Shown here piece by piece: positions 5,819-17,599 of a DNA stretch of 64,000 nt. The stretch is taken from the NCBI GenBank assembly GCA_022823725.1, contig JAJEHL010000035.1:1-64000 (forward strand), given 5' to 3'. Position 1 is the stretch's first letter. Each line of letters opens with the position of its first letter. The DNA is from Candidatus Latescibacterota bacterium (GTDB taxonomy: Bacteria; Latescibacterota; UBA2968). Below the pieces are notes generated by a model. That model did no database searches, had not been told where the DNA came from, and was given only the letters and a program-made list of their open reading frames with translations. The position numbers were made by a program, and so were the translations under genes.

Positions 5819-5855
5819 TTGCATTTTAACACAAGTGTATTATATTAGTAATACA
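5819..5855 (+). promoter_or_regulatory. Promoter and overlapping GntR/YtrA-type operator
   Basis: A -35 TTGCAT (5819-5824) and a -10 TATATT (5841-5846) are separated by 16 bases. A perfect 7+7 inverted repeat covers the -10: TGTATTA (5836-5842), 6 bases, TAATACA (5849-5855). The next gene is a YtrA-subfamily GntR regulator, and that subfamily represses its own ABC-transporter operon by binding AT-rich palindromes of this layout. Autoregulation is therefore a strong inference. Confidence 0.8.
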
Positions 5856-5882
5856 GTAATTCACCAAAAAGAGAAATGTCCT

Positions 5883-6278
5883 ATGCTGATCTCGATTGAC
5901 CATCACAATGGCATACCCGTTTTTCGCCAAATTATCGACCAGGTGAAATTCCACGTAGCCAGCGGGCTGATCGCGCCGGGCGACGAATTGCCCTCCACCC
6001 GTGCATTATCGGGACAACTGGGACTCAATCCAATGACAGTGAGCAAAGCGTACAGCCTGTTGGAAGCAGAGGGATTGGTCGAGCGGCGACGCGGGCGACC
6101 TTTAACCGTAAAACCCTTACGAGATCAGACCGTACACGCTGAAAAACTGGCACAACTCAAACCACAACTCACACAATTGGCAACAATGGTTCGGCAGTTG
6201 GGGGTTGATCGGGCGGAAGTCGTAGATCTTTTTCTCTCCATCTTAGATACCCTGGAGGAAGACAATGATAGCACATGA
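5883..6278 (+). CDS. GntR family transcriptional regulator, YtrA subfamily
   Basis: Short repressor of 131 residues: an N-terminal winged helix-turn-helix (PVFRQIIDQVKFHVASGLI, ELPSTRALSGQLGLNPMTVSKAYSLLEAEGLV, RRRGRP) and only a short helical tail, as is typical for YtrA rather than for FadR- or HutC-type GntR proteins with large effector domains. ATG 5883 is used; in-frame codons further upstream fall inside the promoter/operator. The stop overlaps the ABC ATPase start by 14 bases, making one operon. YtrA-type regulators usually respond to cell-wall-active peptides, but the inducer here is unknown. Confidence 0.88.
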   Translation: MLISIDHHNGIPVFRQIIDQVKFHVASGLIAPGDELPSTRALSGQLGLNPMTVSKAYSLLEAEGLVERRRGRPLTVKPLRDQTVHAEKLAQLKPQLTQLATMVRQLGVDRAEVVDLFLSILDTLEEDNDST

Positions 6279-7158
6279 CCAGACATCTGTATTCGAAGCC
6301 ACGTCACTGACCAAAAAATTCGGTGACACCACAGCACTCAACTCCGTAACACTCTCTCTTGGGGCGCATCGCGTAATTGGATTGATCGGACGCAACGGCG
6401 GAGGCAAAACCACCTTGATCCAGCACATGATCGGCCTGTATTTGCCCACAGAGGGAACGTGTGAAACACTGGGACGCGCGTGCGATCAACTGGGAGCAAA
6501 CGAGCTATCGCGCATAGGCGTAGTACACCAGGAGAATCGTTTTTTTGAATGGATGACCGTCAAACAACATCTGCGCTACGTGTCCTCGTTTTACAAAATC
6601 TGGGACCGCGATCTGGAAGCGCATCTGCTGCGCGAACTCGAACTGGAAACATCTGCACGCGTGGGCAACCTGTCTTCGGGTAACATGCAAAAATTGGGAA
6701 TCATTCTGGCAGTATGTCATCATCCCGAGCTATTGATCTTAGATGAGCCAGTCAGTGGCCTGGACCCCATTGCCCGGGAGACACTGTTGAAATTTCTAAT
6801 GACACTTTTGGCTGAAGACGAAAACACAATCGTAATCTCCTCACACATTCTGCGAGACATCGAAAAAATCGTAGATTGGGTCGTATGCCTCGACGAAGGG
6901 ACAGTCAAAACCGACAAATCGCTGGACGACTTGCACCAGACCTACGCAAAATGGACAGTTACGGGAAACAACCTGCCCCAGCAATTTTCTGAACCCTATA
7001 TCCTGTCGCAAACTGTAAACGGAGTCCAGGCACAACTGATCGTCAATCAGACACTGGGCAATGCAGATCAATTCAAGCAGACTTATCAGGCTGATATCAC
7101 CAGTCAGTCCCTGAACCTCGACCAACTATTTCCCATCCTGATTCGGGAGGGTGCGTAA
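6265..7158 (+). CDS. ABC transporter ATP-binding protein (YtrB-like)
   Basis: ATPase subunit of 297 residues with Walker A GRNGGGKTT, Q-loop region VVHQENRFFEWM, a divergent signature LSSGNMQK, Walker B LLILDEP with D-loop SGLDP, and switch His in VISSHI. A C-terminal extension of about 80 residues is typical of drug/peptide exporters. The GGAGGAAG ribosome site lies inside the end of the GntR gene. Its stop overlaps the next gene's start (TAATG). The membrane partner is predicted to be the following gene. Confidence 0.92.
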   Translation: MIAHDQTSVFEATSLTKKFGDTTALNSVTLSLGAHRVIGLIGRNGGGKTTLIQHMIGLYLPTEGTCETLGRACDQLGANELSRIGVVHQENRFFEWMTVKQHLRYVSSFYKIWDRDLEAHLLRELELETSARVGNLSSGNMQKLGIILAVCHHPELLILDEPVSGLDPIARETLLKFLMTLLAEDENTIVISSHILRDIEKIVDWVVCLDEGTVKTDKSLDDLHQTYAKWTVTGNNLPQQFSEPYILSQTVNGVQAQLIVNQTLGNADQFKQTYQADITSQSLNLDQLFPILIREGA

Positions 7159-8627
7159 TGGGTATCTCTCCGTTTTTCACATTTTTGCGAAGCCCTGTTC
7201 ACATTATCATCGCACTTTGTGTAGTCTGGTTGCTCTTCCAAAACTCTGTGTCTTCACACGCACATCAGTTCTCCGTATTCTTTTTATTTTGCTTTTTTGA
7301 ACTTTACGGTGGAATTATCGGCAGTATTGTAGGAGAAAACCAGCATCGGATGCTCACATGGACCCTGCCACATTTTCGCAAGCGTCTGATGATCTGGTCG
7401 ATAATTATCGGACTATTTTCCGTTGTAGTGTGGACGATTGTACTGACGTTTGCACCCCTCAATGCGTCCTGGTCAACAATTTTACTGGTAAATTTAGGCT
7501 TTTATTGTATCGGATTTGCCTTTTCAGGAGGTTGGAGTTTAGATACTAATCGCCCCGGGTTGATTTACAAGTACCGGATCCTCATCATGTTACCGGTGCT
7601 GGCATTAACCTATTCGTGGCAAGAGGTACTCGCTTTTGGAGAACAACACAAATTGGGATTGGCTCTCATCGCATTCGCTATCGCAATTGGAACTCATTAT
7701 TTCGCCTTTAACCAGGCAACTTTTCGCAGTAAGCCATTTTCTTTTTTCTTTGGGTCACTCTACTCGGGTTTTGATCCTCAAACCCAGAAGATTTGGCAAA
7801 AGAAAAAGATGATGATGCGGAAGGCGAGTACCGGGGTATGGCATCTAAATCATATCGGTACAGGTATCTACAATTGGCTACGTGCCGGTCAGTATGAAAA
7901 TTCTGGTCTGGATGGGTGGAAATGGCCGCTTTCCGCATTTGGCGCAGCATTGGCAATGGTATTCATTTTTTTCAGCATGGAGACGAGTTTCTTCGGGTTG
8001 TTGGGGCAATCTCCTTACGACTTTGAGACCGTCTCGAAAATGATTTATCACATGATCTTTTATTTTGACCAGTTAGATCCTAAGATCGCCATTAATATAT
8101 CGTTTTCTGTGTGCTTCAGCATCTGGATATTTATTCTTTTTCCTTCTTTTTTCGTTAAAAGAGGGTATGTCTATCCGCTTTCTCGCATCCAGCGGATGCG
8201 GATTCAGTATTGCGGTTTGCTGGTGCAAAATATTTCTTTTATTGCCGCATCTATTATCGTGTTGGGCGTTCTGGGCATCCTATCTGGAGCAAAGGTCGGG
8301 TTTGTGTCTGAAGGAAATATTTCTCTGGGAATACTTCGCGTTTTTGGATGGGTAGTGGTTCTGATACCGATATTTCAGTGGTTGCAAGTCAAATACGACC
8401 TGTATGAATTTCAAAGAATGCGGGGATATCGGTGGATGTTCGCTCTTGTGTTACCGCTCATGATTTTGGGTATTGGAATCGGTGGTTTCACCAGTCTGAT
8501 GCGTGTCTGGTATCCCGATTTGATGCTAACCTATGAAGTGCCGATCCTTTTTGTCTGTTTTATTCTTTTGCAATGGTTCCTATTGGCTCGGCTTAAACGT
8601 TATTACGCGACACAGGACTTAATTTAG
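7158..8627 (+). CDS. Multi-spanning membrane protein, probable ABC permease partner
   Basis: Hydrophobic protein of 489 residues with roughly ten to twelve predicted membrane segments (for example SPVHIIIALCVVWLLF near the start and VPILFVCFILLQWFLLARL at the end), interrupted by a soluble loop of about 60 residues rich in Lys and Arg around residues 205-255. I do not recognise a specific family. Position directly after, and translationally coupled to, the ATPase makes it the likely transmembrane subunit. A non-transporter role cannot be excluded. Confidence 0.65.
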   Translation: MGISPFFTFLRSPVHIIIALCVVWLLFQNSVSSHAHQFSVFFLFCFFELYGGIIGSIVGENQHRMLTWTLPHFRKRLMIWSIIIGLFSVVVWTIVLTFAPLNASWSTILLVNLGFYCIGFAFSGGWSLDTNRPGLIYKYRILIMLPVLALTYSWQEVLAFGEQHKLGLALIAFAIAIGTHYFAFNQATFRSKPFSFFFGSLYSGFDPQTQKIWQKKKMMMRKASTGVWHLNHIGTGIYNWLRAGQYENSGLDGWKWPLSAFGAALAMVFIFFSMETSFFGLLGQSPYDFETVSKMIYHMIFYFDQLDPKIAINISFSVCFSIWIFILFPSFFVKRGYVYPLSRIQRMRIQYCGLLVQNISFIAASIIVLGVLGILSGAKVGFVSEGNISLGILRVFGWVVVLIPIFQWLQVKYDLYEFQRMRGYRWMFALVLPLMILGIGIGGFTSLMRVWYPDLMLTYEVPILFVCFILLQWFLLARLKRYYATQDLI

Positions 8628-8655
8628 ATTTAACCTTATCAACAAGGAAGAAGAG

Positions 8656-9495
8656 ATGGCATATCCAAATCTAAAGCAGTCTATTTGGCTGCTAATATTG
8701 TTGTTCCTGATTAGCACTGGTTTGGGGATACCTGTTGCGATCCTGGGAATGATTATTGACCAGCCGTTACACAAAAGTCCTTATGGGATCTGGCCCTTGA
8801 CCCTGGCGAGTTTTGTTCTGGTCGTACACTATGTTTTGCGTCGAACCAATCGAACATGGTCTTCGTGGTCTGAGATTATCCCTGTAAAAGCCATTTCGTG
8901 GCAATTGCTACTGCCACTTGTAGTATCTATCCTCGGATTGTTGATAATCTCTCTGGAATTGGGAAAAGGGATAATGTCTTTGGTCCCAACGCCCGAGGTG
9001 GTGAAGGATACACTCCGCGGGTTGGTCGGCAAAAAAACCTCTTATTGGTTGGCCTTTTACGGCGCAGTAATTCAAGCACCTATCATAGAAGAAGCACTTT
9101 TTAGAGGTATTATTGTGGGTGGTTTGTTGGCACATCGGTCAAAGTATCAGGCTGCTATTTGGTCGGCAATTTTGTTTGGCATATATCACCTGAACCCAGC
9201 GCAATTTCCCGTGGCCTTCATATTGGGACTTGTTTTCGCCTGGTGGATTATTCAGACAGGATCTTTGTTGCCCTGTCTTTTGGGACACGCATTGAACAAT
9301 TTTTTGGCCATCACATTGGCACGGTCGGGAATACCGGGCTTTAAAAATCCAAAAGCTCTGATCTTTTTGCCGTGGTGGGTGGCTGTATGCGCCGTATTGG
9401 TAGCCGCGATTGGGTTGTGGTGGTTTTATCAAGTGTCAAAGCGCGAAGAAACAGATCAGCTTGACGCGGGCGTTGAACCTGAGAGACATTGTTGA
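8656..9495 (+). CDS. CPBP (Abi/CAAX) family intramembrane metalloprotease
   Basis: Membrane protein of 279 residues with about eight hydrophobic segments. All glutamic-type CPBP motifs are present: EEALFRG (EExxxR, ~residues 142-148), FGIYHLNPAQF (FxxxH) and LGHALNNFLA (HxxxN/B). In eukaryotes the family processes prenylated proteins; in bacteria members are linked to bacteriocin self-immunity, peptide processing and regulation. AAGGAAG lies 6 bases before the ATG. It closes the YtrA-type operon and lies just upstream of the peptide-maturation region, so a role in peptide handling is possible but unproven. Confidence 0.88.
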   Translation: MAYPNLKQSIWLLILLFLISTGLGIPVAILGMIIDQPLHKSPYGIWPLTLASFVLVVHYVLRRTNRTWSSWSEIIPVKAISWQLLLPLVVSILGLLIISLELGKGIMSLVPTPEVVKDTLRGLVGKKTSYWLAFYGAVIQAPIIEEALFRGIIVGGLLAHRSKYQAAIWSAILFGIYHLNPAQFPVAFILGLVFAWWIIQTGSLLPCLLGHALNNFLAITLARSGIPGFKNPKALIFLPWWVAVCAVLVAAIGLWWFYQVSKREETDQLDAGVEPERHC

Positions 9496-9728: not shown

Positions 9729-12700
9729 ATGTTTGAAAACGGAACGATTCTCGACAACAAATACCAAATCCAGACACACCTCGGAACCGGAGGCATGGGC
9801 GAAGTCTATCGGGTTTTGGACCTGGAGCAAAGCCAGGAGTGCGCGCTCAAAATTTTGAATACCCTGGTGGACCAGAAGGTTGTGCATCGCCGTTTTCACA
9901 GAGAATTTCAGGTGTTGAACCGCTTCCATCACCCGCGCCTGGTCCGCACATACACCTGGGGCTTTGCCGAAGATCGCCCCTATTTTACAATGGACTATTT
10001 ACCCGGAAAGACATTGGAAAAAATAATCGCCGATCATGCATGTTTGGGACAATTCCGGGCGTCTCACTTCTTCGATTTAATACAACAACTTGCCGAAGGA
10101 TTGGCTTATGTCCATGCGCAGGGTGCGGTGCATCGCGATCTCAAGCCATCCAATATTATGGTTTTGGAAACAGAGGAGGGAATCGAAACCACGATCCTGG
10201 ATATGGGTCTGGCGAAACTCCGGCACCTGCATAGCGTTTCCATTACGCAGACAGGCGCGACGATTGGCACGGCAGAATATATGTCGCCAGAGCAGGGTAA
10301 GGGGTTGTGGGTGGATCATCGATCAGATTTGTACTCATTGGGCGTGATTTTATACGAGATGCTCACGGGCACACCACCCTTTTCCGGACAAAACCCAATA
10401 TCTGTTATCATGAAGCATATTCGAGAGATACCGCCCTCAATGGGCGAAATCAATATCGCTGTTCCTGATGAGATACAACAAATAGTGTTGAAGTTGCTGG
10501 CAAAAGAGCCTGTTGATCGTTATCAGTCCGCAGAGGAGGTGTTACGCGCCTTACCATCAAGATTTGTGCTACCCGATAATAAGCAGCGCGATGTGCCCAG
10601 AAAAGTTATGCGGCCACAATTTGTCGGGCGCGAATCCGAAATGAAGACATTGCGCGCGATGTTGAAGGATGTACAGGCTGGCAAACAGCGCGTGGTTCTG
10701 ATCTCCGGTGAGTCCGGTGTGGGAAAATCGAGACTAATTGAGGAACTATTGGGCGATGCGCTAATCCATGACTTTCTGTGTTTGAAAGGCACAGGTCAGG
10801 AAGAAGGTGGACAAATATACGGTGCGTTGACCGATGCTTTTCAAGGGACGATAGATTCGGCGACGGGGTTGCCCGATCCTGTAGAATCGGACAAGTTTTC
10901 TGTTATGGAGCGCTGGTTGCAGTTACTAAAAACTCTGCGACAGAAACAGCCCATTGTATTGTGTTTGGAAAATATTCAATGGCTTGATGAATTGACATTG
11001 GAATTTTTACAATATGTTTTGCGCGATCCAGACCCGTGTCCATTTTTGTTATGCTTGACCTGTCAATGGTCCAATATGGAACCGCTTTCAGAGGAAGTTG
11101 AAAATTTTATACACAGCAATGAACTTGCTAAGGCGACCCGGATTCAGTTGAAAAATCTACCGCGTAAAAAGGTAGAATATTTAGCGGCGTCGATGTTGGG
11201 GGAGCGGTCCATACCGCGAGATGCATTACAAACCCTGTTTAGAGAAACGGGTGGGCAACCCCTATTTGTCGTAGAAGCGGTGCGGACACTGGTGAATGCC
11301 GATGTGGTTCGGCAGAGTGTGTCCGGAGATTGGCAATGGGGAGAATTTCCCCAAACATTATTATCCGATGATATTTCAGAGATTTTGCACAGACGCATAG
11401 CTACTCTTCCTTCGGTGCAACAGAGAGTGCTGGAATATGCGTGTGTTTTTCTGAGTGATTTTTCTTTTGAATTATTGGCTGAGGTTTGGCGCGGCGATGA
11501 GTTGGAACTGTTAGATGTACTGGACGATCTGATTGCAGAAGGGCTTTTGACAGCTTGTGGAGAGGAGGAAGATCGATATCGATTTTCACAGGAATTGTGT
11601 CGGCGTGTAATTTACGATCGCCTGCAAAATGTGCGGCGGCGTCTGTTGCATCGAGAAATTGGCAATGCTCTGGAAAAGACGGAAGATGCAGAAGAACTGA
11701 CAGAAGAATTGGCGGATCATTTTGCAGCGGCAGGAGAACAAGATAAGGCTGTGAAATATACTCGCCTATCAGGCAAAAAAGCATTGGAAGTACAAGCCTA
11801 TCGCCAGGCAAGAATGCGGTTTGAGGCTGTGCGAGACTGGACAACGAATGACGCTTTTGAATCACCCGCAGATGCAATCGATTTTTTATGCGACTATACA
11901 AACGTTTTACGCTGTTGTAGTCAGCACAACAGCGCACTGGAACTTTTAGATGAGGCAAAAGCGTTATTGCCTAATGATCGGAACGATTTAAAGGCGCGTA
12001 TTTTGTGGAATGAAGGCATTATTCACAGCGTACTACAACATGGGGGAATAGCAGAAAGATATATGCTGGAGGCATTGCGACTTTATCGAGAATTGGATAA
12101 TCTCGACGGCGAAGTTCAGGTATTGAGTAGTTTAGCTCATTTGTGTGATGTGTCTGGACGGCACAAAGAAGCGATTGCATATATGCGACGAGAAATAGAA
12201 AAACATCGTGCGTTGGAAGAAGCCCAGAACAAGGCTATTGTACAAGTGCGAGAAGGTGTGGTTGCATTGGTGGAATTTCGATTTGAGACAGCCAAAGAAC
12301 ATTTAAAAGCGGCTGTCTGGACATCTCAGAAATTGGGACTTGAACACTATCGTATTAGGGCACTCAATTTACTTCAAAGAGTTTATTTTTATCTAAATAA
12401 TTTCAATCGTGCAGAAGCCGTTTGTCATGAAGTCATTAGTGAGTGGCAGAAGCGAGGCGTTGTGTACTGGGAAGCAGCAAATTTTCTCTGTCTGGGAGAA
12501 TTAGCACTGGAACGCGGTGATTTTTTAGAGGCATTGGAATATGCCGAGATCTCAGCAGAGCGATTTTTGGAAACATCGCGAAGAGATTATATTTATCGCG
12601 CTTATGCGACTGCGGCAACTGCTGCTGCGAAAATGGGAGATACAGAAACAGCTCTTGAATGGGCAAAAAGAGCCAGTGAGGGTACGCAACAAACATCGGG

Positions 12701-14537
12701 TATGTACACGGGCATATTGCCTCTGGTGTATGGTGGTATAGGTGTTGCTTTCGCTCAAGCAGGGCAAATTGTTGAAGCTGAAGAGACTTTTGAGCAGGCA
12801 ATTGAATGTCGGAAAGAATCAAAAGGCGACCACTGGGCGCGTGCATTGCTGATGGCAGGGGAGTTTTATCTCGAGCGCGGTGATGTACCAAAAGCGCAAG
12901 CACATCTCGAAGCGGCAAAACAGGCGTTTACAGAAATGGAAATGTCCTATTTTCTGGGGAAAACACAGATGTTATTAAATCAATTTGACGGGTCTTCTCG
13001 CAGTAGGGATGATGCCCCAACCCGTAGCTCTGAAATTTCAGTCGATACATTGTCCGTTGATCGCTTGCGCTTGCTTTACGATGTGAGCAGCGAATTGACC
13101 ACAGAGCGCGATGTCAAGGTACTATTAGATCGAATTTTGGGCAATTTGCTGGATGTTTATCCAGCAGAGCGCGTACTTGTTGCGCTAAAAAATGAGACCC
13201 CAAAAGACTTTGTGGTCAATGCGGTGCGCCACCACAATATAGAGGTAGATGATGCAGAAGAATTGAGCCGGGGTATTATTCGCCGCGTTATTGAAACAAA
13301 TGAACCCGTTTTGAGCTTTGATGCACAAACAGACGATAGGCTAAATCGGTATCAGAGCGTGATAGACTACGACATTCGGTCTGTATTGTGCGTACCTCTA
13401 TTTCATGTTAGCGAAGGTGTGATGGGTGCGCTATATGTGGATCATCGCGGCATGGGCAACACATTTTCTGAAGCAGACCAGACGTTTTTGCAGGCATTTG
13501 CGAATCTGGTGGGGGTAGCACTGGTCAATGCGAGGATGTACGAACAATTGAAAGAGAAAGCACAATATTTGCAGAAGGAGGTCGAAAAGCAGTACCAGCT
13601 TGACGATCTGGTCGGGCAAAGCGATGCTATGCAGACGATCTACTATCTTATCGAACGCGCTTCACAAAGTGATATACCCGTTCTTGTGCAAGGAGAGACA
13701 GGTACAGGCAAAGAATTGGCAGCGCGTGCCATACACTACAATAGCAGGCGCAAAGACCAGCCATTTTTCTCGCAAAATTGCGCCACACTATCAACAGAGT
13801 TGTTGCAAAGTGAGTTGTTTGGGTACAAAAAAGGCGCGTTTACTGGTGCGACTGAAGATCATAAGGGGATTTTTGAAGCGGCTGATGGGGGTACGGTTTT
13901 TTTGGATGAAATCGCCGATGCCCCACCACAGTTGCAAAGGAGTTTGTTGCGGGTGTTGCAAGAAGGAGAGATTCGGCGTGTGGGAGAAACAGAGGATCGC
14001 ACAGTGGATATACGCATTATTGCAGCGACCAATCGAGACTTAAAACAGGAAGTTGAAAACGGTTCTTTCCGCGAAGATTTATATTATCGGTTGCACGGGA
14101 TACAGATCGATATGCCACCTTTGCGACAACGCATTGAAGATGTGCCGTTATTAGCCGAACATCTGCTCACCCGAGCAAAAGAAGAGGCAAACAAGTCGGT
14201 TGGAGGACTGACAGTAGGTGCAATCAGGGCACTTACAAGTTACAACTGGCCCGGCAATGTGCGCGAATTGGAAAACAAGGTTCGGCTTGCGGTTGCATTG
14301 TCAGAAGAAGGTGATGAAATCACGTCCGATTTGTTTTCAGAAGCTGTCGGGCACGCGGTGTCGGGTGTCTCTGTCGAATATCAAAGGCATTTACAAGATC
14401 GTGTTCAGGAATATGAGAAATGGTTGATTATGGATGCGCTCGAAAAATACGAGGGCAATATTACGCATACGGCTAAAGAACTGGGGATAACGCGTGCTGG
14501 CCTACAGAAAAAGATCAATCGTTTGGGATTGAGATAG
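9729..14537 (+). CDS. Ser/Thr protein kinase fused to ATPase-TPR-GAF and sigma-54 activator
   Basis: Giant regulator of 1602 residues from ATG 9729 (an in-frame ATG at 9549 adds 60 residues without a domain). Order: Hanks-type kinase (glycine loop GTGGMGEVYRV ~19, HRDLKPSN ~134, DMG in place of DFG, YMSPEQ); AAA-type ATPase (GRESE, GESGVGKS ~326, LCLENIQWLDE); a long TPR-like helical region (~600-1080); GAF domain (~1104-1270); sigma-54 AAA+ module (GETGTGKE ~1321, intact GAFTGA ~1368, VFLDEIAD, RPL-type region) and Fis-type helix-turn-helix at the end (NITHTAKELGITRAGLQKKI). It should sense signals through kinase/TPR/GAF and drive sigma-54 RNA polymerase, most likely at the -24/-12 promoter just downstream. 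Confidence 0.9.
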   Translation: MFENGTILDNKYQIQTHLGTGGMGEVYRVLDLEQSQECALKILNTLVDQKVVHRRFHREFQVLNRFHHPRLVRTYTWGFAEDRPYFTMDYLPGKTLEKIIADHACLGQFRASHFFDLIQQLAEGLAYVHAQGAVHRDLKPSNIMVLETEEGIETTILDMGLAKLRHLHSVSITQTGATIGTAEYMSPEQGKGLWVDHRSDLYSLGVILYEMLTGTPPFSGQNPISVIMKHIREIPPSMGEINIAVPDEIQQIVLKLLAKEPVDRYQSAEEVLRALPSRFVLPDNKQRDVPRKVMRPQFVGRESEMKTLRAMLKDVQAGKQRVVLISGESGVGKSRLIEELLGDALIHDFLCLKGTGQEEGGQIYGALTDAFQGTIDSATGLPDPVESDKFSVMERWLQLLKTLRQKQPIVLCLENIQWLDELTLEFLQYVLRDPDPCPFLLCLTCQWSNMEPLSEEVENFIHSNELAKATRIQLKNLPRKKVEYLAASMLGERSIPRDALQTLFRETGGQPLFVVEAVRTLVNADVVRQSVSGDWQWGEFPQTLLSDDISEILHRRIATLPSVQQRVLEYACVFLSDFSFELLAEVWRGDELELLDVLDDLIAEGLLTACGEEEDRYRFSQELCRRVIYDRLQNVRRRLLHREIGNALEKTEDAEELTEELADHFAAAGEQDKAVKYTRLSGKKALEVQAYRQARMRFEAVRDWTTNDAFESPADAIDFLCDYTNVLRCCSQHNSALELLDEAKALLPNDRNDLKARILWNEGIIHSVLQHGGIAERYMLEALRLYRELDNLDGEVQVLSSLAHLCDVSGRHKEAIAYMRREIEKHRALEEAQNKAIVQVREGVVALVEFRFETAKEHLKAAVWTSQKLGLEHYRIRALNLLQRVYFYLNNFNRAEAVCHEVISEWQKRGVVYWEAANFLCLGELALERGDFLEALEYAEISAERFLETSRRDYIYRAYATAATAAAKMGDTETALEWAKRASEGTQQTSGMYTGILPLVYGGIGVAFAQAGQIVEAEETFEQAIECRKESKGDHWARALLMAGEFYLERGDVPKAQAHLEAAKQAFTEMEMSYFLGKTQMLLNQFDGSSRSRDDAPTRSSEISVDTLSVDRLRLLYDVSSELTTERDVKVLLDRILGNLLDVYPAERVLVALKNETPKDFVVNAVRHHNIEVDDAEELSRGIIRRVIETNEPVLSFDAQTDDRLNRYQSVIDYDIRSVLCVPLFHVSEGVMGALYVDHRGMGNTFSEADQTFLQAFANLVGVALVNARMYEQLKEKAQYLQKEVEKQYQLDDLVGQSDAMQTIYYLIERASQSDIPVLVQGETGTGKELAARAIHYNSRRKDQPFFSQNCATLSTELLQSELFGYKKGAFTGATEDHKGIFEAADGGTVFLDEIADAPPQLQRSLLRVLQEGEIRRVGETEDRTVDIRIIAATNRDLKQEVENGSFREDLYYRLHGIQIDMPPLRQRIEDVPLLAEHLLTRAKEEANKSVGGLTVGAIRALTSYNWPGNVRELENKVRLAVALSEEGDEITSDLFSEAVGHAVSGVSVEYQRHLQDRVQEYEKWLIMDALEKYEGNITHTAKELGITRAGLQKKINRLGLR

Positions 14538-14549
14538 ACGTTGGACAGG

Positions 14550-14567
14550 TGCATCCAACTGTATGCA
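14550..14567. promoter_or_regulatory. Palindrome 1, candidate upstream activator site
   Basis: TGCATCC, 4 bases, GTATGCA: an imperfect dyad centred near 14558, about 250 bases before the predicted sigma-54 transcription start. It is 22 bases (about two helical turns) from palindrome 2. The shape suits a dimeric Fis-type helix-turn-helix. Confidence 0.7.
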
Positions 14568-14571
14568 GTAG

Positions 14572-14589
14572 TGCATCCTACCGTATGCA
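14572..14589. promoter_or_regulatory. Palindrome 2, candidate upstream activator site
   Basis: TGCATCC, 4 bases, GTATGCA: the same arms as palindrome 1 with a different 4-base centre, centred near 14580 (about -228). Conserved arms with a variable core are what a protein-binding site would look like. Confidence 0.7.
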
Positions 14590-14653
14590 CCTGTATATCC
14601 TTATATAATTCAGACAATTACGTTGATTTTCTTATAAATAGACGATTTATAGA

Positions 14654-14671
14654 TGCATCCTGGCGGATGCA
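14654..14671. promoter_or_regulatory. Palindrome 3, candidate upstream activator site
   Basis: TGCATCC, 4 bases, GGATGCA: the most perfect of the three dyads (7+7), centred near 14662, about -146 relative to the predicted start. It lies 82 bases (close to eight helical turns) from palindrome 2, keeping all three sites on one face of the helix. Confidence 0.7.
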
Positions 14672-14733
14672 CTTGCGCCAGAGTCTCGCAGATTTAGCAC
14701 GAATAATTCTCAAATTTTATCTCTTTGTTTTTC

Positions 14734-14770
14734 AAGTACTTGAGCTGCCTCAAGTGCTTTTTTTTATTTT
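14734..14770 (+). terminator. Rho-independent terminator after the kinase-activator gene
   Basis: AAGTACTTGAG (14734-14744), loop CTGC, CTCAAGTGCTT (14749-14759), then a run of T. The stem is 11 base pairs with one G-T pair. It stops read-through from the regulator gene and insulates the sigma-54 promoter that starts 13 bases further on. Confidence 0.85.
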
Positions 14771-14782
14771 GAGATGGTTTTG

Positions 14783-14796
14783 GGCACGGATCTTGC
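14783..14796 (+). promoter_or_regulatory. Sigma-54 (-24/-12) promoter
   Basis: The element TGGCACG-N4-TTGCA is matched almost exactly: GG at 14783-14784, ten bases, GC at 14795-14796, with CACG and TTGCA in the conserved flanks. Transcription should start near 14808 and lead into the small peptide gene at 14854. Sigma-54 promoters require an AAA+ activator; one is encoded immediately upstream and another two genes downstream. Confidence 0.88.
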
Positions 14797-14853
14797 ACTA
14801 TAAAAAGGGCAAACCGTTATGACACAGGATTTTTCCATTACAAGGAGGATAAC

Positions 14854-15036
14854 ATGGCAACACGACGCAAATTGACTTTGGTCAACGGAGCAATAGATCA
14901 AGAAGGTAACATTCTTATGTATCGGGCTGAGAACGGTTTTGAAATTGGCGGCTGCGCCCCTTATTCTTTTACCGTTCCCCTCGTGCCTTTCCCTGATGAT
15001 GATGACGATAGGGACTATTTTGATCAGCCTGAGTGA
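14854..15036 (+). CDS. Candidate RiPP precursor peptide (60 residues)
   Basis: Preceded by a near-perfect ribosome site AAGGAGG (14842-14848), 5 bases before the ATG. The N-terminal ~30 residues are a plausible leader (basic MATRRKLTLV, then charged/neutral). The C-terminal half holds GGCAPYSF with the only cysteine (C34), a proline-rich stretch (VPLVPFP), a run of five Asp (48-52) and DYFDQPE. The sequence matches no family I know. The radical SAM maturase begins 28 bases downstream in the same sigma-54 unit. One Cys with nearby Asp/Glu acceptors fits a single thioether (ranthipeptide-like); FPD and YFD would also fit three-residue cyclophane motifs. The product class is inference. Confidence 0.72.
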   Translation: MATRRKLTLVNGAIDQEGNILMYRAENGFEIGGCAPYSFTVPLVPFPDDDDDRDYFDQPE

Positions 15037-15064
15037 ACCATCTCTATTCTGAGGAGTGCTTACT

Positions 15065-16495
15065 ATGCTGTGCATTCAAAAATGCGACATGCATCTTTTT
15101 CAAACTGAAGAGCAAAAACAGCCGATTGTCTATCAGGTGGAGGCAGGTCTGTTTTTTAAATTGGATCCCCTTTTCCAGTCGGTTTTAGAGTGTTGCGAGG
15201 GCCTGTCGGCTTCGCAGGTTGTTCAGGTGCTAGCTGGCCAATACGAGGCAGAAGAAATTGTCGAGGCGATTGAGGAACTGGCTCAGGTGGGGTTGATTTC
15301 GGATGGTGCTCTACCTGTGGTATCCAATGTGCCGATAACAGAAGGGGTGGCAGCCTGTGGCGTATCGCAGACAGATCGTTTGCAGGTGTCGTTGCACGTT
15401 TCACATACGTGCAATATCCAATGCGCGTATTGCTTTGCCCACGGCGGGGATTACGGCGGCAAGGCCATGCTGATGCAACCCGATGTTGCCGAGCAAGCCA
15501 TTCGCTGGATTGTCACCGAGGCTCAGGCATTAGGACGGTGCCAGATTGATTTTTTTGGCGGGGAGCCGCTTTTGAACTTTCCGCTTCTACTCAAGCTCGT
15601 ACCATTCGCCAAGTCCCTGGGAACGCGATTGGGTGTGCAGGTAGGTTTTGGTATTGTGACCAATGGCACGCTGTTGACCGACGAGATGAAACAATTTTTG
15701 ATTGATGAAAAGTTTCAAATTAAGGTCAGCCTGGATGGCGGACGTAAGACACAGGACCGCATTCGCAAGTTTCACAATGGTTCTGGGACTTATGATGTTG
15801 TGGCAGAGAATGTTAAGAAACTGACTGCTGAGGCACCTGAGCGCATTCATTTGCAAGCCATTATGACCGCGTATGATATGGATGAGGATCAGATTGCCGA
15901 TGAATTGCGTTCTTTGGGTACTGAAAACGCGCTCATCGACCCGGCTGTTGTTTCACCGGATGCACCTTATGCAGTCCGGGAAGAACACCTGCCCGTTTTG
16001 AAGCAGCAAATCCACAAGCGCAGCCGGCGTGCGCTCAAAGCCATTCTGACTGGTGAAGAGAGTAAAGAGTTTGATTCGCGGATTCAAAAATTGCTGACGC
16101 GCGCAAAATCCTGTCACGGGTGTCTCGGTGGCAAACAGTATCTGGCGGTTGCAGCAGATGGGTCGATTTATTTTTGCTCGAGTTTGGCCGATGCGCCCGA
16201 GTTTAAGATGGGTGATGTGTTTGCGGGTATTGACCGCGAAAAGCAGCAGCATTTTGACGCGCAGTTCAATGTGAATAATCGTCCTGAGTGCAAAACGTGC
16301 TGGGCGCGCAACTTGTGTGGTGGCGGGTGTCTTTGGGATGCGCGGACGACGACGGGTGACCCGATGCATCCCAACCCGGTTGCTTGTGAACAGACGCGCT
16401 ATCGCTATGAATTGGCGATGGAAATGTGTATGGAAATTGGAGAAATGGATGCGTCTTTGTTGCAGCGACGTTATGATCTGGAAGTGGTATCATAA
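15065..16495 (+). CDS. Radical SAM-SPASM peptide maturase, SCIFF/ranthipeptide-like
   Basis: 476 residues from ATG 15065 (GAGGAG 8 bases upstream; an in-frame GTG at 15056 overlaps that site). The N-terminal ~100 residues look like a PqqD/RRE-type leader-binding domain. The radical SAM core has CNIQCAYCFA (the CxxxCxxC cluster), GDYGG.AMLM and DFFGGEPLLNF, a combination typical of SCIFF and QhpD-type thioether-forming enzymes. The C-terminal SPASM domain carries CHGCLGGKQYLAVAADGSIYFC and CKTCWARNLCGGGCLW plus a later Cys for two auxiliary clusters. The substrate is almost certainly the 60-residue peptide encoded just upstream. The exact bond formed is unknown. Confidence 0.88.
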   Translation: MLCIQKCDMHLFQTEEQKQPIVYQVEAGLFFKLDPLFQSVLECCEGLSASQVVQVLAGQYEAEEIVEAIEELAQVGLISDGALPVVSNVPITEGVAACGVSQTDRLQVSLHVSHTCNIQCAYCFAHGGDYGGKAMLMQPDVAEQAIRWIVTEAQALGRCQIDFFGGEPLLNFPLLLKLVPFAKSLGTRLGVQVGFGIVTNGTLLTDEMKQFLIDEKFQIKVSLDGGRKTQDRIRKFHNGSGTYDVVAENVKKLTAEAPERIHLQAIMTAYDMDEDQIADELRSLGTENALIDPAVVSPDAPYAVREEHLPVLKQQIHKRSRRALKAILTGEESKEFDSRIQKLLTRAKSCHGCLGGKQYLAVAADGSIYFCSSLADAPEFKMGDVFAGIDREKQQHFDAQFNVNNRPECKTCWARNLCGGGCLWDARTTTGDPMHPNPVACEQTRYRYELAMEMCMEIGEMDASLLQRRYDLEVVS

Positions 16496-16509: not shown

Positions 16510-16644
16510 ATGAAAAACTGGTATCCAATACGGCATCCAAATGGGGATGATAACGCCCTGTTAGATGCCGTTTATTTTGCTTTTGGGTGGGCGACAGATT
16601 GTTGGTGGATGGGAGGAACATATCAATCAAAAATTCGGCCTTGA
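16510..16644 (+). CDS. Small aromatic-rich ORF of 44 residues
   Basis: This frame runs from ATG 16510 to a TGA at 16642-16644. It encodes a short peptide with four Trp and three Tyr (MKNWYPIRHP at the start, FGWATDCWWMGG near the end) and one Cys. It overlaps the start of the second activator gene in another frame and lacks a strong ribosome site. It could be a second peptide, a regulatory leader or the displaced N-terminus of the activator after a frameshift, or chance. I report it because of its position inside the peptide operon. Confidence 0.3.
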   Translation: MKNWYPIRHPNGDDNALLDAVYFAFGWATDCWWMGGTYQSKIRP

Positions 16645-17599
16645 TAAATGGCCACTCATTGGACAGTATCCCTCACTCTTAGACGTACAAAAACGTGCGC
16701 ACCGCGTGGCAAATAGCGAATTGCCCGTCAACATCCGTGGAGAAACCGGCACGGGCAAGGAACTGCTCGCCCGTTATGTTCACGGCATTAGCCACCGCAA
16801 CAGGGGACCATTTGTAACCGTTGACTGCGGCATACTCTCTTCTGAAATGTCGCGCAGCGAGTTATTTGGACACGTTCGAGGTGCTTTTACCGGCGCCAGT
16901 GAAACGCGCACCGGACTGGTTGAATCTGCCCGGGGCGGTACGCTATTCCTCGATGAAGTGGGCGAATTGCCAGCCAACCTTCAGTTGCAATTGCTACGCC
17001 TGGTACAGGAACAGGAATTTCGCCGCGTAGGCGAAGCATCCATGCGCCGGTCCGACGTGCGCCTGATCACTGCGACACACTGTAACTTGCGAAAAATGGT
17101 GCGAAAAGGGACTTTCCGAGAAGATCTCTATTACCGCCTAAATGTCGTACCCCTGCATTTGCCACCCTTGCGGAAGCGACTGAGCGATCTGCCGCTTTTG
17201 GTCACGCATTTTTCTCAGAGCATGAAAGGATACATGCGTGCATTTTCCCCCGAAGTGATTCAAAGGATGTCGCGTTATGCATGGCCGGGCAATGTTCGGG
17301 AACTACAACACGAAGTTGCCCGATTGATGGTCATGAGCGAAGGTAAAATTATCCGAGTATCCGACCTGCGCCCCTGCATTCGAGGGGCAAACGCCCAAGT
17401 TGATGCCTTTGACCTCCCGTTTAAGGAAGCCAGACAACTGGCGAACAGCCGGTTTATGCGAGAGTATCTTCACAGAGCTTTGCAGAGAACACAGGGCAAT
17501 GTAACCCTGGCAGCACAACAATGCGGGATTGGCCGACAGTATTTCCAGTTGCGTATGTCCGAGTACGATCTAAAATCGGCATCTTACAAACAAAAATAA
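16565..17599 (+). CDS. Sigma-54-dependent activator without sensor domain
   Basis: Protein of 344 residues consisting of an AAA+ module (GETGTGKE, ELFGHVRGAFTGASE with intact GAFTGA, TLFLDEVGELP, FREDLYYRLNVVPLHLPPLRKR, YAWPGNVRELQHE) and a C-terminal Fis-type helix-turn-helix (TQGNVTLAAQQCGIGRQYFQLRM). Only about 30 residues precede the AAA+ core, so it is constitutively active or controlled by a partner. It is third in the peptide unit and is followed by a terminator, so it could amplify its own operon. The start is uncertain: ATG 16565 has no good ribosome site, while GGGAGG occurs at 16610 without a standard in-frame start nearby. Confidence 0.88.
   Translation: MPFILLLGGRQIVGGWEEHINQKFGLDKWPLIGQYPSLLDVQKRAHRVANSELPVNIRGETGTGKELLARYVHGISHRNRGPFVTVDCGILSSEMSRSELFGHVRGAFTGASETRTGLVESARGGTLFLDEVGELPANLQLQLLRLVQEQEFRRVGEASMRRSDVRLITATHCNLRKMVRKGTFREDLYYRLNVVPLHLPPLRKRLSDLPLLVTHFSQSMKGYMRAFSPEVIQRMSRYAWPGNVRELQHEVARLMVMSEGKIIRVSDLRPCIRGANAQVDAFDLPFKEARQLANSRFMREYLHRALQRTQGNVTLAAQQCGIGRQYFQLRMSEYDLKSASYKQK

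Follow-up and report, generated by a model that had tools for sequence, protein, structure and literature searches.

A Candidate Ranthipeptide-like Precursor and Its Radical SAM/SPASM Maturase in a Three-Gene Cassette from Candidatus Latescibacterota

The Three-Gene Cassette

The window, that is, the whole 64,000-nucleotide stretch of Candidatus Latescibacterota DNA analysed here (contig JAJEHL010000035.1, positions 1 to 64,000), contains a cassette of three genes (9729-16495): a kinase-activator gene, a small precursor gene and a radical SAM/SPASM maturase gene. These three form the constant unit among the copies found. The precursor lies directly between the other two in every copy with enough contig, and the activator is always upstream of it wherever the contig extends that far; other neighbours vary between chromosomal sites. 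The following features were located in the window:

9729-14537, + strand: kinase-activator gene, encoding Ser/Thr kinase, AAA_16, TPR, GAF, sigma-54 AAA+ and Fis-type HTH domains in that order (probable start ATG at 9729; reading frame open from 9549)
14550-14567, no strand assigned: enhancer-type palindrome 1, TGCATCCAACTGTATGCA
14572-14589, no strand assigned: enhancer-type palindrome 2, TGCATCCTACCGTATGCA
14654-14671, no strand assigned: enhancer-type palindrome 3, TGCATCCTGGCGGATGCA
14733-14766, + strand: conserved terminator-like hairpin and T-run, between the activator gene and the sigma-54 promoter
14783-14796, + strand: sigma-54 -24/-12 promoter, GGCACG-N4-TTGC (here GGCACG-GATC-TTGC), with GGCAC and TTGC invariant in 20 aligned upstream regions
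14842-14848, + strand: ribosome-binding site AAGGAGG, with the precursor start 6 bases 3' of it
14854-15036, + strand: precursor gene of 60 codons (60 aa), with leader (residues 1-33) and core (34-60) delimited by conservation
14953-14955, + strand: Cys34 codon, TGC in this copy (family: TGT in 16 of 22, TGC in 6 of 22)
14989-15009, + strand: F46-P47, which is invariant, and the D48-D52 run, which comprises three to five acidic or Asn residues in the family
15065-16495, + strand: maturase gene (476 aa; ATG at 15065, 28 bases 3' of the precursor), with an RRE-like N-terminal domain, CX3CX2C at residues 116-123 and all seven SPASM cysteines

The precursor translation, MATRRKLTLVNGAIDQEGNILMYRAENGFEIGGCAPYSFTVPLVPFPDDDDDRDYFDQPE, has C34 as its sole Cys, an Asp run at residues 48-52, FPD at 46-48 and YFD at 55-57; the coordinates, length and residues that an earlier sequence-only reading had given for this ORF are all correct. 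No family in Pfam or NCBIfam was matched by the peptide, and assignment to a known family was dropped on that account. The ORF is nonetheless a genuine gene, beyond chance, because it combines a ribosome-binding site, an invariant sigma-54 element and a radical SAM gene behind it with membership of a 22-gene family under purifying selection. That its product would be a RiPP precursor, as had been claimed from the window alone, is strongly supported by the adjacent, co-conserved maturase with its RRE-like domain, by the conserved leader (dN/dS 0.25) encoded beside the modifying enzyme across the genus, and by a fast-evolving segment around an invariant Cys. We are nearly certain that the two genes form a precursor-maturase pair.

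Distribution and Conservation of the Precursor Family

A profile search with the precursor found 22 places in nine of the 11 genomes of the genus and nothing above threshold in 53 other Latescibacterota genomes. One place (G031:C56) has no start codon and was left out of the family set, which consists of 22 intact precursors: 21 from genomes of the genus and one (L073) from a genome labelled Poribacteria. The latter is presumably of the same lineage, since its maturase is 88% identical. The absence of the cassette from G036 probably reflects a contig that breaks off within the activator gene; in G038, a single-contig genome, the cassette is absent and the flanks are rearranged. Within the genome from which the window derives, a DNA search revealed a second complete cassette, which lies on a different contig and is 76% identical, and two further places that match in the promoter region only.

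Thirteen residues (M1, K6, L7, L9, N11, G12, E17, C34, V41, P42, F46, P47 and F56) and one acidic column are invariant in 22 of 22 copies, and the leader carries the conserved motif KLTLING..D.EG. Counted from Cys as 0, V at +7, P at +8, F at +12 and P at +13 never change, and the stretch from Cys34 to Pro47 contains no indel in any of the 22 copies; indels are present on both sides of it, immediately ahead of Cys and within the run of Asp. The positions that follow are +14 (residue 48; D in 14 copies, N in eight), +15 (residue 49; D in 20, N in two) and +16 (residue 50; D in 21, E in one), the last being the only one of the three that is always acidic.

Precursor codons are under purifying selection overall (pooled dN/dS 0.36 across the 22 copies), with marked differences between segments: the value is 0.25 for the leader, 0.64 immediately ahead of Cys, 0.73 between Cys and +6, 0.11 between +7 and +13 (residues 41-47) and 0.25 for the tail. 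The segment at 0.73 includes the invariant Cys, the codon of which varies silently between TGT and TGC. Two core types can be distinguished, C.PY..[TA]VPL and the rest (VPP/VPS); Tyr at +3 and Leu at +9 occur together in six of six copies, the other 16 having neither residue (Fisher 1.3e-5); as the copies are related, this p-value does not count as independent support for contact.

In the alignment, the conserved feature is thus a 14-residue C...FP block with acidic residues directly after it, rather than the five-Asp run. The latter, which had been singled out in the window peptide, is indeed present in that copy; as a defining feature it was ruled out, being three to five residues long in the family and absent from distant relatives. 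Likewise, the single Cys holds for 15 of the 22 copies, the window copy included, whereas in the other seven the leader contributes a second Cys. YFD fared worse: it occurs in two of 22 copies (the window copy and one other), Y55 is D or N in the remaining 20, and two precursors (L046 and L073) stop directly after F56. The Y55-F56-D57 cyclophane suggested for the window peptide was rejected as a family feature on these grounds. Residue 53 is W in the family but Arg in four of 22 copies, the window copy among them.

Some cassette copies look degraded (L025/L046, L026/L097 and L044), examples being the start-less precursor at G031:C56 and, at G030:C214, a maturase gene interrupted by an in-frame stop, which suggests turnover of cassette copies.

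The Maturase

The radical SAM cluster ligands C116, C120 and C123 are intact. Against NCBIfam, the maturase scores highest with SCIFF (264.7 bits), followed by QhpD (249.7), nif11 (248.3), 'not_ScfB' and PapB (229.5), missing the cut-off of every NCBIfam family; models for cyclophane-forming enzymes score far lower (YhhB 85.5, FxsB 72.7 bits), and the sactionine synthases RumMC and SkfB match at 105 bits and 7.6e-05 (phmmer), respectively. The best solved relative by phmmer is CteB (2e-61 over residues 20-452; 30% identity). An AlphaFold model (mean pLDDT 85, pTM 0.83) also retrieved CteB first in Foldseek (5WGG; 1.6e-30, TM 0.70), with anSME next at 4.5e-18. HMM ranking, phmmer and Foldseek thus all group the maturase with QhpD, SCIFF and PapB, not with the sactionine synthases. 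For residues 4-80 the prediction gives strands and then three helices, the order that an RRE would show, and we infer from alignment to CteB that this N-terminal domain is one.

In a 30-row tree, the enzymes of the genus and those of two genomes from other genera (G023 and G025) form their own nine-row clade (100/99) apart from SCIFF (100/100), the deeper joins (QhpD, nif11 and outgroup rows) being partly unresolved and some branches long. Judged by these comparisons, the maturase is nearest to the SCIFF/QhpD/PapB group of thioether-forming enzymes, in a clade of its own.

These two genomes hold the more distant relatives. In G023 (maturase 51% identical), a 73-aa ORF with a ribosome-binding site occupies the precursor slot (MKRESSCFYLHAINGNSDTNGTVHSYLSSKNPSQGLVCVWPDFPLLPPPSTLD...) and is the best match of its locus to the family profile (E 0.0013, on a small set). 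In G025 (maturase 43% identical), the slot likewise holds a small ORF with a ribosome-binding site (MHLKPINRQGKKRRKLKNIPSLSCSYNGHNFHIEEDVVLPQSPEAK...), the homology of which to the precursor is only positional. The core Cys is kept and the Asp run absent in both ORFs. Both loci also encode a second SPASM protein without CX3CX2C but with the SPASM cysteines kept (L094:8211-9602; L095:196-1572, minus strand), apparently a candidate partner or pseudoenzyme, which was not seen in the genus.

Candidate Cross-Link Chemistry

QhpD, PapB and CteB link Cys to side-chain carbons, the acceptors being Asp/Glu (QhpD), Asp in Cys-X3-Asp (PapB) and Thr (CteB) (PMC7876137, PMC8326336, PMC9413430, PMC11002830). 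We infer that the maturase acts on the window peptide in a similar manner: it would hold the leader motif through its RRE-like domain, abstract a hydrogen from a carbon in the side chain of the acceptor and join that carbon to the Cys34 sulfur. The likeliest acceptor would be one of the acidic residues at 48-50, directly after F46-P47, giving one large proline-rich ring of about Cys-X13-15-Asp. This arrangement is favoured because the invariant Cys lies at a fixed distance from the F-P-acidic residues. The ranthipeptide-type thioether between Cys and Asp/Glu, one of the options raised from the sequence alone, gains support from the kinship of the maturase (230-265 bits for SCIFF, QhpD, nif11 and PapB versus 73-86 for FxsB and YhhB; CteB as best structural match). 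We consider it likely that Cys34 becomes a thioether, whereas placing the acceptor at 48-50 is close to an even call. As an account of the whole locus, our best explanation, a three-gene RiPP cassette with a ranthipeptide-like single Cys34 thioether to an Asp at 48-50, stands about as good a chance of being right as wrong.

The implied ring exceeds the Cys-X3-Asp of freyrasin, the Cys-X0-6-Asp tested with PapB and the Cys41-Asp49 of QhpC; it would be unusually large for the enzyme group, which counts against the preferred reading. In addition, the D/N exchange at position 48 fits Asp-only chemistry there poorly. Because the distant precursors have no Asp run, another position may serve as acceptor, for instance one within the C...FP block or in the leader.

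Such a link could join Cys34 to a non-acidic residue at a fixed distance (F46 or V41) or to a leader residue, through a sactipeptide-like alpha-carbon or an unusual beta-carbon bond. V41 and F46 are invariant and keep a constant distance from Cys, the distant relatives do without the Asp run, and sactipeptides with large Cys-Phe rings exist, for example subtilosin A. The position of the maturase with QhpD, SCIFF and PapB, together with its RumMC and SkfB scores, speaks against this chemistry, which we regard as unlikely. The F-P-[D/N] motif, present in 22 of 22 copies, could alternatively mark a three-residue cyclophane at F46-P47-[D/N]48, possibly with W53-D-D/N in other copies and with Cys34 in another role; known enzymes of this kind join Phe/Trp to the Cβ of Asn/Asp at i+2, a pattern that the motif matches (PMC11002830). 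This FPD cyclophane, also raised from the window peptide, thus keeps its conserved motif but would leave the invariant Cys without explanation. Moreover, the YhhB and FxsB scores lie far under those of the thioether-forming models, W53 is replaced by Arg in four copies, YFD is confined to two, and the presumed core of the G025 candidate, which does have a Cys, lacks aromatic-X-Asp/Asn; these points together make a cyclophane improbable.

The chemical diversity of radical SAM/SPASM enzymes would also accommodate a real pair in which the peptide is not cross-linked, the enzyme carrying out another change (epimerisation, oxidation or decarboxylation) or serving another substrate. Since the nearest characterised relatives all form Cys thioethers and Cys34 is retained amid a fast-changing background, we likewise hold this to be improbable. 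A spurious ORF, or an ordinary acidic small protein with no tie to the enzyme, might be suspected from the short length and the lack of Pfam and NCBIfam matches; contradicted by 22 homologues that accompany the enzyme, by purifying selection and by the conserved ribosome-binding site and sigma-54 promoter, it is hardly credible.

If the Cys34 thioether with an acceptor at 48-50 is correct, QhpD/SCIFF/PapB enzymes can form a ring much larger than those made by known members, and can do so where the substrate offers only one Cys for cross-linking; the pair would then offer a clean system for studying acceptor choice by such enzymes and a possible macrocyclisation tool.

Comparison with Characterised Systems

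The SCIFF systems (CteA/CteB thermocellin, Tte1186; TIGR03974) resemble the cassette in their two-gene core, which pairs a short precursor with a radical SAM/SPASM maturase carrying a fused RRE and has no exporter of its own, in their wide distribution within the host lineage and in CteB, the nearest relative of solved structure, with 30% identity along the full length. The window precursor differs in its unrelated sequence, its acidic tail and its one core Cys (at most two Cys in all) versus six Cys in about 45 residues, and the maturase, at 264.7 bits versus a TIGR03974 cut-off of 425, falls in a separate clade. With freyrasin (PapA/PapB; NF047865), the cassette shares maturase kinship and Cys and Asp as expected partners; unlike the six Cys-X3-Asp motifs of that precursor, there is one Cys, with the first Asp 14 residues on. 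No genus copy contains Cys-X3-Asp, and the maturase scores 229.5 bits against an NF047865 cut-off of 340. QhpD (TIGR03906), again related to the maturase, installs leader-dependent Cys-Asp/Glu side-chain thioethers over larger spacings (Cys41-Asp49) in QhpC of quinohemoprotein amine dehydrogenase. QhpC, however, serves as a protein subunit, carries three links and has haem partners; the maturase scores 249.7 bits against a cut-off of 453, and the neighbourhood contains no qhp genes.

The triceptides (XyeB, FxsB, GrrM and YhhB type) share with the precursor an aromatic-X-[Asn/Asp/basic/Ser] motif in the core, to which F-P-[D/N] conforms in 22 of 22 copies and YFD in 2 of 22 only. The maturase lies outside those families (YhhB 85.5 of 445, FxsB 72.7 of 370 bits), and the invariant Cys has no triceptide role. 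The activator, in turn, partially matches the TOMM kinase/cyclase fusion (TIGR03903; 289 bits), another RiPP-linked Ser/Thr kinase-AAA protein, but remains under its cut-off of 705.75 and has the kinase fused to sigma-54 AAA+ and HTH domains.

We read the family as a new branch, confined to the genus, within an established class of modified peptides. The suggestion that the product could be a new class is not borne out in its plain form, and the maturase belongs with enzymes that are already known. A bolder formulation, in which a new ranthipeptide-like class combines one very large proline-rich Cys-X13-15-Asp ring with diversifying copies, two to three to a genome, that each have their own kinase/sigma-54 activator and matched enhancer sites as an insulated circuit, and with the peptide possibly feeding back on the kinase, seems to us a long shot.

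Activators and Their Sites

The adjacent activator would bind the three palindromes and switch on precursor and maturase from the sigma-54 promoter. Each promoter of the family has up to three palindromes upstream, the sequence of which differs between paralogous cassettes and tends to agree within one promoter. The palindromes track the recognition helix of the adjacent activator (window 14550-14671; upstream regions L027-L045 and L073): TRAGLQKK accompanies TGCATCC..GGATGCA/GTATGCA sites in 10 of 10 cases and TRVGLHKK accompanies TGTAT-type (TGTATCC) sites, imperfect in several, in five of five, counts that partly reflect shared ancestry and do not amount to a statistical test. TRVGLYKK occurs with TGTAAACCTGCGTTTACA (TGTAAAC type) and TRVGLQKK with TGCATACAACTGTATGCA (TGCATAC type). 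This correspondence suggests that each activator reads its own promoter, forming insulated one-to-one circuits. The duplicated sigma-54 circuits would thus constitute a natural set in which activator and site appear to change together.

At two more places in the genome of the window, the same terminator-like hairpin and sigma-54 promoter were observed: behind another activator paralogue driving a different gene, a 258-aa ORF (L004; G000:C32:47185-50279), and in an apparent relic near a transposase-like ORF (L003; G000:C49).

Possible Role and Genomic Context

SCIFF ranthipeptides are reported to act in quorum sensing (Chen 2020, as cited in PMC8326336). For the present family, we tentatively consider signalling or self-recognition the most likely role, ahead of that of a classical bacteriocin. 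The peptide occurs almost throughout the genus, is present in several copies, changes quickly beside Cys and has matched activators, all of which would suit such a role; a bacteriocin or an intracellular function is possible. A defence-system reading was set aside, the PADLOC matches of kinase, activator and enzyme (viperin, PD-T4-6, RtcR) being generic domain matches. The literature searched contains no report of ranthipeptides from Latescibacterota, and a sponge paper (PMC9426513) mentions none; the cassette would thus place a RiPP family in a sponge-associated phylum for which that literature has no such peptides.

No exporter or protease is constant across cassette copies, which also counts against our best explanation of the locus. 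Upstream of the activator, the window (5835-9495) encodes a GntR-type regulator, an ABC ATPase, a large membrane protein and a CPBP (Rce1-like) protease, which are kept at the chromosomal site of the window in several genomes and absent at the other cassette site; restricted in this way, the ABC, GntR and CPBP genes were rejected as a constant exporter or protease. Just 3' of the maturase (16565-17599) lies a short sigma-54 activator without a sensor domain, found only at the chromosomal site of the window. One genome has two ABC transporter genes immediately 3' of the maturase (L040:2534-6300), which may provide an exporter for that copy.
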